A DNA stretch of 64,000 nucleotides, from contig WRLM01000001.1 of NCBI GenBank assembly GCA_009777615.1, forward strand, positions 248,001-312,000, written 5' to 3'. The position numbers were made by a program, and so were the translations under genes. The DNA is from Candidatus Methanoplasma cognatum. GTDB lineage: Archaea; Thermoplasmatota; Thermoplasmata; Methanomassiliicoccales; Methanomethylophilaceae. Shown one piece after another: positions 17,685-64,000 of the stretch (its first letter is position 1; the number at the start of each line of letters is the position of its first letter). The notes under the pieces are model-generated. The model did no database searches. It saw only the letters and a program-made list of their open reading frames with translations, and was not told where the DNA came from.

Positions 17685-18245
17685 CTAACGGTCCCGTATC
17701 CTGACGGCTCCGTCCTCCACCGTGATGTCCAGCATTCTTTTGATATCCACGCCTAAACGTTCGCCTAGCTCTTCTATTTCGGAACTTTTGTTGAATACCA
17801 CCAGTATATCGATAACCGATATCCCGTTCTCCCTCAGAGCGCCGACGACCGCCGATAACGTTCCGCCGGTGCTGAGTATATCGTCAACGATAATGACCCT
17901 GTCGCCTTTCCTGAGACCGTTGATGTACATTTCCCGGTCAGAATATCCGGTCTTGTATGGGACTTTGATCTCCCCTTCGATGCCGTACGATCGTTTTCTG
18001 ATCACTGTGTAGGGTATCCTCAGTCTGAGGGACAAGGGGACGGCGAGAGGTATCCCCATAGATTCAGGCGCGGCGATGCGGTCGCAATCGAAGCCGCAGG
18101 CAGAGACCATCCACTCGATGATCTCGTCAAGCACGGCAGGGTCCATCAGAGGCACGCCGTCTGTGACAGGGTGGACCATGTACGGATATCCGTTCATGTC
18201 GATAACCTGACTGCGCATCACGCTGGCCCTCAGTCTCTCATGCAT
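17685..18245 (-). CDS. hpt: Hypoxanthine/guanine phosphoribosyltransferase, archaeal type
   Basis: 186 residues matching the archaeal Hpt family from MHERLRAS through VHPVTDGVPL and ESMGIPLAVPLSLR to the PRPP-binding loop VIIVDDILSTGGTL near residue 118. It salvages hypoxanthine and guanine to IMP and GMP in the cytosol. This is the only gene in the window whose stop codon is TAG; an in-frame TAA follows seven codons later (17661-17663). If TAG is decoded as pyrrolysine, the protein would gain an eight-residue tail. The TctA-like gene follows on the same strand. Confidence 0.9.
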   Translation of the reverse strand: MHERLRASVMRSQVIDMNGYPYMVHPVTDGVPLMDPAVLDEIIEWMVSACGFDCDRIAAPESMGIPLAVPLSLRLRIPYTVIRKRSYGIEGEIKVPYKTGYSDREMYINGLRKGDRVIIVDDILSTGGTLSAVVGALRENGISVIDILVVFNKSSEIEELGERLGVDIKRMLDITVEDGAVRIRDR

Positions 18246-42226: not shown

Positions 42227-42497
42227 AGGATAGAGAACGCGTTGTAGCGATATAAAGGAAGGCGAGAAGGGGGATCAGGATGCCGGCCCCTACGGACAAC
42301 GGATAGGCATTCTGTTTTGAAATGTCAAGAAAAACTTTTTTATTATAATTTAGTAATTGTTTATATAATGTTCTAATAGTCACGAACCTAATTTTTTAGA
42401 ATAATACTCCCTTTAAAGGTCAGGTTTTTACGGTTTGGGCGGCTCTCTATGACAACTACGATCTCTGAAAAATTATCTGCTGGCTTGGTTGAAGAGG

Positions 42498-42581
42498 CGT
42501 GGAGGGGGGGATTCGAACCCCCGAGTCCTTACGAACAATAGATTAGCAGTCTATCGCCTTACCAGGCTGGGCCACCTCCAC
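42498..42581 (-). tRNA. tRNA-Ser (GCU)
   Basis: Class II tRNA of 84 bases on the minus strand. Acceptor GTGGAGG pairs with CCTCCAC, discriminator is G, anticodon stem ATAGA/TCTAT encloses loop CTGCTAA with anticodon GCT. A long variable arm (TGTTCGTAAGGAC) and T arm GGGGG-TTCGAAT-CCCCC follow. CCA is not encoded. It lies upstream of and divergent from the 16S rRNA gene. Confidence 0.95.
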
Positions 42582-43029
42582 CCACTGCCACCGAAGACAA
42601 GTATCTGTATTAAGCTTTCCTATAAGCGGCGCCGGTGCCCGGCACCCGGCACCTGGCAGGAGCCCTTAAGCAATGTTTATATACCAGTCATGTATGAGAG
42701 GATTCTGCGGGAATCAACCATTGCGCCCGGTCCCCGGGTGGTTTTTGACACTGCATCCCGTTGTCTGGGAAGGCCGACTTCCTAGGTAAAAAAGCTTAAA
42801 TATTCCCCCGAAGTACGGGGAGTACGCGGCCCGAAATGGGCTTGCAATGATGGAGAATCAAGATCTCCGCCGCAAGGCGTGAACTCTTGAATTCTGACGT
42901 TCGATGCTACGAATGTTCCGTTAGACGGACATTCGATTGAGTGAGCCGTCCGACGGAGCAGCGGTGAAACATGGTAAACTGCCAGTTTCTTTCATCCATC
43001 CAGAGACGTGATAATGTCACAAGGATTTG
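42582..43029 (+). other. 16S rRNA promoter and leader region
   Basis: Two TATA candidates occur: TTTATATAC at 42676-42684 and CTTAAATAT at 42795-42803, the latter after an A-rich element and giving a leader of about 205 bases. Between them a hairpin (CCCGG/CCGGG at 42726-42738, with ACCA/TGGT below it) ends in five T, which could terminate the distal transcript. The leader proper contains a bulged hairpin CGAATGT/ACATTCG around 42908-42934, a possible processing structure. Confidence 0.5.
42795..42803 (+). promoter_or_regulatory. Proximal TATA box of the 16S rRNA gene
   Basis: CTTAAATAT preceded by AAAAAAG, a plausible TATA box plus TFB-recognition element, about 230 bases before the mature 16S 5' end. 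Confidence 0.5.
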
Positions 43030-44499
<1,470 letters not shown>

Positions 44500-44503
44500 A
44501 CGC

Positions 44504-44526
44504 AGGGTGGGGCTCAGCCCCACCCT
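44504..44526 (+). terminator. Hairpin directly after 16S rRNA
   Basis: AGGGTGGGGC and GCCCCACCCT form a perfect 10-bp stem with a TCA loop, starting five bases after the anti-Shine-Dalgarno. It may end the transcript or guide 3' processing. An A-rich, not T-rich, sequence follows. Confidence 0.55.
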
Positions 44527-44548
44527 CAAACAAAAATAAGCGTAAAAT

Positions 44549-44587
44549 ATTGCAAGGAAAATCAGTTAAGAGTGATTTTCCCGCAAT
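44549..44587 (+). other. Second long hairpin downstream of 16S rRNA
   Basis: GGAAAATCA (44556-44564) pairs perfectly with TGATTTTCC (44573-44581) around an 8-base loop, and ATTGC/GCAAT extends the stem below a small internal loop, giving 14 base pairs. Its role (processing, termination, or an independent RNA) is unknown. The remaining intergenic bases to 44781 hold nothing I can assign. Confidence 0.4.
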
Positions 44588-44781
44588 TCCGAAGGCAGCT
44601 TACCATGCACTAAACGTAGCATCGAACGTCCATCCGATTTTTTTCATATTTCTCAGGTGGGCAGGGCCATGCGAAGCGCCGGCTTTTCAGGCGGCAGAGG
44701 ACCGGATGCCATATGATAGAATGAGGGGCGTACCGCTGTCATAACTCTTGCAGATATGCGGCCGGCTATATTCTCGAGCGT

Positions 44782-45837
44782 TCACACGCGGCTTTTGCTC
44801 AAATATTCTTTTCCTTTTTTCATTAGCTTGATGAATTTTTCAGGATTTTCCGAGAGCGAAGCCTCTCTCACTTCCCTCACAGCCCCTTCGTAGATGTTCC
44901 ACATGCTCTCCGCATTACCGTTCAGGTTCTGTATCTCGTGATAGAGGGAAGCGTTCTCTTTTGACAAAGGAACGCAAGCGTCCAAACATCTTTTGAATGT
45001 GGTCGAGGCTACGCCCTTCAATTCGTTGAAGGGTATGCCGCTCTCTCTGAGTGTGGTGAAGAACACAACATTGGACGCATGCGCGAGCGCCAATACGTAA
45101 GCCATAAGTTCATCGTGCCTCTCGACAGTTGTGACTATTATGTTGGATCCCTCGTCGTTAAAGAGTTCCGCTGCCTCATCCGCGGCGTTACTGCATCCGC
45201 AGTCGCAGATGACCACGCTCCGATCGAACATCGATGCGGCGGAGGGGCCGAACATCGGATGGACCGAGCAGACCTTCCTGTGCTCGGCCATCTTCCTGAG
45301 ATCATCAGTGAATGAGGATTTTACGGACGCTATATCGAAGATCAGAGCATCCTTTTTACAAATGGCATCCGCCGCTTTCAGGACAGACTCTACGGATGAT
45401 ATCGGGACCGATATGACGACGACATCCGAATCCGCCGCATCCTCCATACTGCCCTCGGAGACGTCGACGATGTTCACAACCGCCCCCCGTCTCCTGAAGT
45501 ATCTTCTCATCCATCGCCCCATCTGCCCGTTGCCGCCGATGATGGTCACTCTCTTCTGGCACCATTTTATTATCGCAGTGGACTGGAGCTCAGCGGAGCT
45601 GGCCGTCAGCACGTTGCAGATGGATTCGGAGGCGCCTTGCGGCAGCGATGAGTTCTTGGACATCGTGCGGCACCTCTCGATCTCTTTCTTCTCTGCATCC
45701 TCATCCCTGAGCGGGATTCCGAGCTCGTTTTTCATAACGCCGATCCTTTTGGCGATGTCGCTGCGCTGGATCATCAGCTTGACGATCATGGAGTCTATCA
45801 CCTCGATCTCTTCCTTCATGGACTCTATGTCTTTCAT
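44782..45837 (-). CDS. tyrA: Chorismate mutase-prephenate dehydrogenase fusion
   Basis: 351 residues from ATG 45837. The AroQ-type chorismate mutase helix bundle (about 1-85: IEVIDSMIVKLMIQRSDIAKRIG, split here for reading) is fused to a NAD-binding prephenate dehydrogenase with VTIIGGNGQMGRWM near 95 and VHPMFGP near 190. It converts chorismate to 4-hydroxyphenylpyruvate, the tyrosine branch. GAGGGGGG eight bases before this ATG decides against the upstream ATG at 45879. It is the third gene of an aromatic operon, 44 bases after the dehydroquinate synthase stop. Confidence 0.92.
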   Translation of the reverse strand: MKDIESMKEEIEVIDSMIVKLMIQRSDIAKRIGVMKNELGIPLRDEDAEKKEIERCRTMSKNSSLPQGASESICNVLTASSAELQSTAIIKWCQKRVTIIGGNGQMGRWMRRYFRRRGAVVNIVDVSEGSMEDAADSDVVVISVPISSVESVLKAADAICKKDALIFDIASVKSSFTDDLRKMAEHRKVCSVHPMFGPSAASMFDRSVVICDCGCSNAADEAAELFNDEGSNIIVTTVERHDELMAYVLALAHASNVVFFTTLRESGIPFNELKGVASTTFKRCLDACVPLSKENASLYHEIQNLNGNAESMWNIYEGAVREVREASLSENPEKFIKLMKKGKEYLSKSRV

Positions 45838-56204: not shown

Positions 56205-57446
56205 TTAAGGCGTTCTGAAGCGGAAGAACCATAATGCCGCGCATGCCGCACCGAGCAGCATGACTGCGATCGCCCCGTAAACAGCCAGCGAAATGCCGTC
56301 GCCGCCGGGTTCATCTTCATTGCCTTCGGGGGCGAGAGCCGTTTTGAACGATGCGGTCAGTTCGACATCTGAGTTCACAGTGATCATACGTTCCTGAGAT
56401 GTGTTGTTGTCTGACCATTTAACGAAGACATACCCCTCATCCGCAACAGCGCGTATCGTTATCTGAGCGGACTTATCATACGTTCCGGCACCCTCTGCTT
56501 TACCGCCGTCTTCGGCGTGCAGGACGACGTTGAATCGTTCTTGAATTTCTGTCACTCCCGTGACCGTGAATGTGACATCCGATGTAACCCTGAACCCTGT
56601 TCCTGCCGTGTATGGAATGCTGTTAGCTCTTAACAAAGGCGTTCCCTTGTATCCGGGTTCAACGTCTGCGGATACATGTATCACGGTTCCGTATTCGACC
56701 TTCTCAGACGTTCCGCGACCCATATTGATGCCGTCACGGATCCATGTCAAGCCTTGGGTATTCGCATATGTGACATCGCACAGGACAGGCTGTTCCTGGA
56801 CCTTACTCACCCCCGTGACCGTGAATGTGACATCGGACGTAACTCTGAACCCTGTTCCCGCTGTGTATGGAATGCCGTTAACTTTTAACAAAGGCGTTCC
56901 CTCGTATCCGGGAACAACCTCTACGGACACACGTATCTCAGTCTCGTATCCGATTTTCTGGGATGCTCCCCCACCCAGATCGATGCCGTTGCAGATCCAT
57001 GACAGGCCCTGGGCATACGCATATGTGACATCTAACACGGTGTACTGGAAGAATAGCTCCATATGCAGGGATGCCGTGATATCGGTGAAACTTACTATCT
57101 CTGTGGTATAAATTACCGGGTCCCCCCATCCATAGAAATAATAGCCGTAATCCGCGACCGCCCTTATCAAAACATCCGCATGGTCAGGGAGCTGGACAAC
57201 AGAGGCATATTCTAAAAAGGGAGAACCGTTCACACTGTATTCCGCATGTCCTTTCCCACTCGCCACATATATTGTCAGAGTTATTTGGGGCACATCGAGC
57301 TCTTTGCTGATCACATCGTCCGTATGGGTGGCGGGAACGCCGCCATCCGCACTGTCGCCGTTCTAAACCGCGATGCCGATGACTGATAAGGCCATAAGAG
57401 CGCAGACAACGGCAAGTACAGGGACCAAATTGTTTTTCTTTTTCAT
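56205..57446 (-). CDS. Secreted, membrane-anchored repeat protein with in-frame TAG
   Basis: 413 codons if TAG is read through. MKKKNNLVPVLAVVCALMA starts an N-terminal signal peptide at ATG 57446; codon 28 is TAG (57363-57365), and the same frame then continues for 385 codons. The exported part has an AEYSVNGSPF domain, two near-identical units (GYEGTPLL/GYKGTPLL, IPYTAGTGFRVTSDV), and a YVFVKWSDN Listeria-Bacteroides-like repeat, then a C-terminal membrane helix (about 385-405) and a short FRFR tail. It is an adhesin-like surface protein. A TATA box near 57490 lies upstream. Without readthrough, translation could restart at ATG 57314 lacking the signal. Confidence 0.8.
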
Positions 57447-57861
57447 TTCGAAACCACTCTGATTTCAAATGGTTATGTTTTTAGTCGGTTATATATTTTG
57501 ACTCTTGATTTACCGTGTCGCCGGAATATAATATATGATGCTTAGTGAATACTTCGGTCTCCGAAATTCTAATATGTGATGTTAGAATTTATGTCCCTAC
57601 GGCACCATAGTCCCTCCCCGGTCATAATACAAGACACGGGGCCCTGAGTGTCAGAATGTGGGCCGACATGTGTATGCGGGACGCTTTTAACATATTTCGG
57701 CCCGTATTGATACCAACTCCGTTGAGGACAGGGCCCTCTATAAAAGGTGTTATATATCTAATCGAGTTAGCCAACCTCAGAACTAAGCTCCGCTCAGTGC
57801 ATGAGCTTTAAATACGATAAGAATAATCGCAAAAAATACTTCAAATAATGAGGTGAAACGT
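57447..57861. other. Divergent intergenic region with hairpin and promoters
   Basis: About 415 bases. Minus-strand TATA near 57488-57500 suits the surface protein. A 9-bp perfect stem AAATTCTAA/TTAGAATTT (57564-57590) with 9-base loop has no assigned role. On the plus strand TATAAAAG at 57739-57746 and TTTAAATA at 57807-57814 are two promoter candidates for rps12. GGGCCCT occurs twice (near 57640 and 57731). No additional gene is visible. Confidence 0.45.
57807..57814 (+). promoter_or_regulatory. Proximal TATA box of the rps12 operon
   Basis: TTTAAATA lies about 50 bases before the TTG start of rps12, leaving a leader of roughly 25 bases that contains the GAGGTGA ribosome site. Confidence 0.5.
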
Positions 57862-63005: not shown

Positions 63006-63290
63006 ATTTTACATAATACCGCTCTTATAGATATATTAGGCACATAGTAACTATATACAAACTATTGTATCACTGGAGATTTTATATATTATTATGTGTT
63101 ATTTATCTTTGTCGAAAATCAATTCGATAACAAAACCGTTCAATGTCGTGAATAAGGGACGAAACGCGAGGTCTTGTGCTCAATATTTTTGGCATGAGCA
63201 AAAACTCCTTCAGGACATTCCCGTTCCTTCCCTATTCCCCCATTCACGGCATTGTAACGGCCCCTATCAAAGACGAGGCGGCGGATCGAA
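63006..63290 (+). other. AT-rich region upstream of the right-end surface protein
   Basis: About 285 bases. TTTATATATT at 63081-63090 is the best promoter candidate, giving a leader of roughly 180 bases before ATG 63291. A 69-codon plus-strand frame from 63094 has no ribosome site and no recognisable product. Confidence 0.4.
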
Positions 63291-64000
63291 ATGTCAGCGG
63301 TGAAAACAGCATCTGAGAAACGGGTACTGACGGCAATAGCGGCGGCCGTATTGATGATCATACTTATGCCCGCATTAAGCCAAATGGCAGAACCGGCGGC
63401 CGGTATCGGTAATGCTGATGGGAACAACATCTCACAGGGTCAGGAGACCGCCTCGGAGCCGACAGGCAGCGGATCCCTCATCGAATGGAGAGGGGACGCA
63501 AGCGGAGAGTCCGCAGCATATTGTCTTACGAAAGATCCGGGCAATTCTGTGCCGGAGGTATCTGACGGATTACCGCCTGTGAACAAGGAATACTACATCA
63601 CCGCAACCTCCGATCCCCTGACCTCCATATCTCCGGAGGGGAAGGCGGCCGTACAGAAAGGGAACAGCATAACATTCACCTTCTCCGCCGACGCAGGATC
63701 CTACATCGATGCGGTAATAGTCGACGGCATGCACCTTTCGCAGGCGGAGATAGACCGCGGGTCATATACATTCCGTAATGTGGGCATGAACCACACCATC
63801 TGGGTGAAGGGCGCTGAGTCAGAGGTGACCCTCACCATCGCTATGGTGGAAGGCAGCGGTTACGCCGAATACAGCGTGGACTACGGACCGTTCACGAAGT
63901 ACACAACGATCGTCAGTCTGCCGGACCGGGCGGACGTGACCGTCAGAGCATATGCGGACGACGGATACCAATTTGAGAGATGGCGTGTGGGAGCGACCCC
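63291..64000 (+). CDS. Secreted surface protein, partial (runs off the window)
   Basis: The first 236 codons of a gene that continues past the right edge. An N-terminal hydrophobic segment (about 12-32) is a signal peptide or signal anchor, followed by a Ser/Gly/Glu-rich linker and beta-rich extracellular modules. The segment GYAEYSVDYGPF ... SLPDRADVTVRAYADDGY parallels GHAEYSVNGSPF ... QLPDHADVLIRAVADYGY in the TAG-containing protein at 56205-57446, so both belong to one surface-protein family. ATG 63291 has only weak ribosome-site similarity upstream. Adhesion or host/partner contact is the likely role. Confidence 0.75.
   Translation, partial: MSAVKTASEKRVLTAIAAAVLMIILMPALSQMAEPAAGIGNADGNNISQGQETASEPTGSGSLIEWRGDASGESAAYCLTKDPGNSVPEVSDGLPPVNKEYYITATSDPLTSISPEGKAAVQKGNSITFTFSADAGSYIDAVIVDGMHLSQAEIDRGSYTFRNVGMNHTIWVKGAESEVTLTIAMVEGSGYAEYSVDYGPFTKYTTIVSLPDRADVTVRAYADDGYQFERWRVGAT

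Follow-up and report, generated by a model that had tools for sequence, protein, structure and literature searches.

A TAG codon directly behind the export segment of a repeat surface-protein gene in Candidatus Methanoplasma cognatum, probably read as pyrrolysine

The window, i.e. the whole 64,000-nucleotide stretch of DNA that was analysed, carries on its minus strand a gene for a putative surface protein whose reading frame contains a TAG at codon 28. This raises the question of how the codon is read. An earlier note had offered pyrrolysine (Pyl), a readthrough switch or a nonsense mutation. The features of the locus are as follows.

56205–57446, minus strand: whole gene, 413 codons if TAG is counted as Pyl; stop codon TAA at 56205–56207
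57489–57499, minus strand: TATA-like box AAAATATATAA, read directly from the sequence; its role is putative
57366–57428, minus strand: hydrophobic core of a signal peptide or signal anchor, residues 7–27 (Kyte-Doolittle)
57363–57365, minus strand: in-frame TAG at codon 28, where the two closest homologues carry CAG (Gln)
56802–57035, minus strand: internal repeat 1, residues 138–215 (repeat comparison)
56547–56780, minus strand: internal repeat 2, residues 223–300 (repeat comparison)
56340–56528, minus strand: divergent InlB B-repeat domain (Flg_new_2), residues 307–369 (Pfam PF18998, E 1.2e-12)
56217–56297, minus strand: C-terminal transmembrane anchor and short basic tail, residues 384–410 (Kyte-Doolittle)

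The frame starts at ATG 57444–57446, encodes MKKKNNLVPVLAVVCALMALSVIGIAV (27 codons), and continues through the TAG and 385 further codons to the terminal TAA at 56205–56207. It contains no frameshift and zero stops other than the TAG at codon 28. The earlier description of a signal peptide, the TAG and 385 codons joined in one minus-strand frame is therefore borne out. The N-terminal segment is basic and hydrophobic, with a best 19-residue Kyte-Doolittle mean of 2.75. Among 200,000 random 81-mers drawn at the base composition of the upstream region, 37,404 were open and only three of these were signal-like (∼8 per 100,000 open); thus the segment is not a chance frame. The AT-rich TATA-like box is found 42–52 bases upstream of ATG 57446, and the signal segment is therefore probably part of the transcribed gene. 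GTG 57314, the first in-frame start past the TAG, was rejected as the main start, as the product would be without the signal segment, though it would keep the C-terminal anchor. The TAG had also been placed at the signal-peptidase region. This is approximately correct as to position, but the segment could equally be a membrane anchor that stays uncleaved.

The C-terminal hydrophobic segment has a best 19-residue Kyte-Doolittle mean of 2.26. Between the two hydrophobic segments are two repeat copies of ∼78 residues each, which differ from one another with dN 0.17 and dS 0.40 (dN/dS ∼0.43). The PF18998 match is above the Pfam cut-off. The protein does not belong to the methyltransferase families MtmB, MtbB or MttB; only InlB/Listeria-type repeat domains matched, and a comparison with NCBIfam gave no matches. 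The predicted gene product is a two-anchor repeat surface protein, and its layout fits retention by the C-terminal anchor.

The genome of the host, a methane-producing archaeon of gut type, is a 1.62 Mb draft in seven contigs. A gene for pylS (289.5 bits against a curated cut-off of 178) and a gene for pylB, also above its curated cut-off, are found at the end of contig C1. Genes for pylC and pylD, both above curated cut-offs, are at the end of contig C7. Immediately before pylS there is a 70-base candidate tRNA-Pyl (locus L016, 6357–6426), which has the CUA anticodon in a 7-base loop, adjoining acceptor and D stems, a CAG variable loop, an encoded CCA and a broken anticodon stem. Matching features have been described for the tRNA-Pyl of Methanomassiliicoccales (Borrel et al.; PMC3941956). 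The candidate was assigned by eye from the sequence; neither the ARAGORN nor the RF00005 matches include it, and its minimum-energy fold is not a cloverleaf. If the first ATG of pylS is the correct start, pylT and pylS share a single base, the last base of CCA being the A of the ATG (L016, 6357–6427). The solved synthetases closest to the host PylS are short PylRS forms that have no N-terminal domain. Within the genus, pylS is above cut-off in 14 of 17 genomes.

Two adjacent genes near pylS contain an in-frame TAG in the canonical context GRPGMGI-O-GPETPLS. With the TAG read through, both match Pfam PF05369 (759 and 772 bits). They were also considered as mtbB, which was rejected, since Pfam gives mtmB. 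On the strength of pylT-S-B-C-D together with the Pyl-type mtmB genes, the host genome is taken to decode pyrrolysine. Pyl appears the best reading of codon 28 in the surface-protein gene. The search of the genome for pyl genes, which the earlier note had proposed, thus found pylS, pylB, pylC and pylD over their cut-offs and a tRNA with the CUA anticodon, and the objection that pyl genes might be lacking falls away.

The pylB gene is cut by both contig ends, that of C1 (L016) and that of C7 (L017). The two ends overlap by ∼60 codons and differ slightly, with ISAG in one and VSAG in the other, read antisense. Contigs C1 and C7 probably join inside pylSBCD.

The use of TAG as a stop codon was assessed over ∼421 kb, approximately one-quarter of the genome. 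The 265 non-overlapping open reading frames of at least 150 codons end in TGA (194), TAA (63) or TAG (8); the mtmB genes account for two of these TAG ends. When shorter frames are included, TAG ends 10 of 306 open reading frames; overall, the proportion is ∼2–3% of long open reading frames. In ‘Ca. M. alvus’, TAG stops amount to 1.6% (PMC4153887). The host genome largely avoids TAG stops, and its usage is near that of ‘Ca. M. alvus’. In a strict census of the same ∼421 kb, TAG was found to bridge coding-like sequence, with no competing frame, only at the two mtmB genes and at the surface-protein gene. Coding-like sequence flanks the TAG of the latter on both sides in one open frame, as expected of a neutral Pyl codon, with an N-terminal codon score of 0.16 that is barely over the census threshold of 0.15. 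The strict census gave eight cases for TAA and TGA, mostly adjacent genes with a start right past the stop. A looser TAG census gave 19 matches, and the additions are mostly short frames upstream of genes that have their own start.

A few genes appear to end at TAG. A phosphoribosyltransferase-like gene (17685–18245, minus strand) is an example, and UAG may therefore be read ambiguously, with some chains of the surface protein stopping at residue 27. Two homologues of the phosphoribosyltransferase-like gene have TAA (78% identical) and TAG (77% identical), respectively, at the aligned end; readthrough would add just eight residues (Pyl and seven others) before the next in-frame stop. A 503-residue open reading frame in locus L095 (18103–19614; G000:C1:38103–39614) also ends in TAG. 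Its congeners mostly have stops within the alignment or match the first 440–460 residues only, and the gene boundaries vary between species.

The two nearest homologues with the full architecture lie next to each other in a single congeneric genome (G006). The N-termini of both align without gaps over codons 1–28, and codon 28 is CAG (Gln) in each. The context of codons 27–29 is GTG CAG AGC and TCG CAG AGC in the two homologues vs GTT TAG AAC here. The homologues are only 36–39% identical to the surface protein and are located at a different genomic place. At the aligned position both thus have a sense codon that is one change from TAG, which is again in keeping with a neutral Pyl codon, and the TAG is most simply explained by a C-to-T transition from Gln. 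Its tolerance would follow from the reading of UAG as Pyl in this host. The earlier note had held that a sense codon in related strains, with this copy a lone mutation from which no protein is made, would speak against its reading. The first half of this applies, as the relatives carry CAG and this copy is the exception.

In the six genus genomes where aIF2-beta and rps12 are found together on the recovered stretch, the surface-protein gene is absent between them. The gene therefore appears to belong to a variable complement of surface proteins, and the homologues were taken from elsewhere in G006 because these six genomes have no syntenic orthologue. A search of genome contigs gave mostly distant bacterial InlB-type repeats and no archaeal orthologue. 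When a G006 protein was compared with 102 genomes of the family, only domain-level matches were found beyond G006 and the present gene. Another surface-protein start with a signal segment is located at 63290–64000 (plus strand) and runs past the end of the window. It has a domain ∼54% identical to residues 54–107 of the TAG-bearing protein, and this domain recurs in many very large open reading frames of this genome and of the genus.

These observations together make it quite probable that the product is a repeat surface protein with two anchors, made by a pyrrolysine-decoding methanogen, in which an ancestral CAG for Gln-28 became TAG and is now read as Pyl, with a full-length product. The ancestor would have carried Gln at this residue, immediately past the N-terminal hydrophobic segment. 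After a C-to-T transition, Pyl-tRNA(CUA) would read the codon as pyrrolysine, and the full-length protein would still be made. The Pyl residue may then sit in a tolerant juxtamembrane position, or leave with the signal peptide, and the protein would be exported as before the change. Incorporation of Pyl at codon 28, its efficiency and the neutrality of the substitution are presumed from the sequence. Partial termination at codon 28, which would yield the 27-residue peptide only, is possible.

The same CAG codons in the relatives would also suit a recent nonsense mutation. UAG would then terminate translation, leaving a hydrophobic peptide of 27 residues. The surface protein would be dispensable, and its gene an early pseudogene or a phase-off allele. 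The lack of the gene between aIF2-beta and rps12 in six genus genomes points to dispensability, and the apparent TAG termini of some host genes also favour termination. However, the complete Pyl machinery, the rarity of TAG stops and the absence of a second lesion across 385 codons argue against it, and the nonsense mutation is considered unlikely. Still less probable, indeed hardly to be expected, is a sequencing or assembly error where the true codon is CAG. The two codons differ by a single base and the genome is a seven-contig draft, but the contig is long (648 kb), the gene has no other error, and such TAGs have been reported from Pyl-encoding relatives (PMC4153887, PMC4824259).

A readthrough switch was also proposed in the earlier note. 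In an evolved switch, the efficiency of UAG suppression would follow methylamine supply and Pyl level and would set the amount of surface protein exported. In favour of such a switch, the TAG is right behind the export segment, such that termination would abolish export of the product altogether; pylBCD are needed for the supply of Pyl; and a review describes how Pyl-tRNA in general competes with the release factor (PMC9499178). However, the TAG is not conserved, with a sense codon in both G006 relatives. The RNA around it shows no unusual structure: no stable structure of the PYLIS type was found directly downstream of the UAG, where folds compared with shuffles gave z values of 0.44 and 0.34. 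In addition, the low use of TAG as a stop suggests constitutive decoding. A dedicated switch thus finds no support, and we regard it as very improbable. The related proposal that pyrrolysine supply, and hence methylamine metabolism, decides whether the surface protein is exported is similarly far from likely. If true, display on the surface of this gut archaeon would be metabolite-gated, as termination at codon 28 would leave the signal segment only. Most likely, judging from the sequence comparisons, the TAG arose as a harmless one-letter change and not as a switch.

With the TAG read as Pyl, the gene would follow the pattern already seen in ‘neutral’ Pyl proteins of Methanomassiliicoccales. 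Borrel et al. (2014; PMC4153887) predicted 16 Pyl proteins that are not methyltransferases in ‘Ca. Methanomethylophilus alvus’; these include Cas1, MtxX and digeranylgeranylglyceryl phosphate synthase, and several are termed merely ‘hypothetical protein’. The authors argue that a host of this kind would stably retain a TAG newly arisen in a gene (PMC4153887). Like the members of this set, the surface-protein gene contains just one in-frame TAG, is otherwise intact and lies in a Methanomassiliicoccales genome where TAG stops are rare, but the set names no repeat surface protein with a TAG directly past an export segment. ISO4-G1, of the same order and with similarly scattered TAG-containing genes, is reported to have 25 Pyl genes, nine of which are methylamine methyltransferases, leaving 16 (PMC4824259). 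It differs in that, of the non-methyltransferase set, the paper names a nonribosomal peptide synthetase only (PMC4824259).

The methyltransferase genes mtmB, mtbB and mttB use this codon too and depend on the same machinery to decode it. Their Pyl, however, is catalytic and conserved, whereas in the surface protein the relatives have Gln and there is no catalytic context. In work of 2009 attributed to Heinemann, the Pyl of the tRNA-His guanylyltransferase of Methanosarcina acetivorans is said to have arisen by neutral evolution. There, too, a TAG arose and was tolerated in a protein that has no need of Pyl. That protein is a cytosolic enzyme from a different order and was studied experimentally, whereas here the comparison is one of sequence. 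A 2025 study on archaea that use TAG throughout as Pyl reportedly backs many such proteins with peptide evidence.

Under table 11, automatic annotation would yield either a pseudogene or a shortened protein of 369 residues that lacks its export signal. If read as proposed, the gene is a clear example of Gln replaced by Pyl in a repeat protein that is exported; the change can be traced to one base, and the ancestral codon can be named. It would be a further non-catalytic instance bearing on the extent to which UAG has become a plain sense codon in this order, and leaves the general picture of Pyl use unchanged.

Elsewhere in the window, a search of 42300–44900 gave no match for 23S or 5S rRNA; the same stretch has a complete archaeal 16S rRNA gene at 43030–44499.
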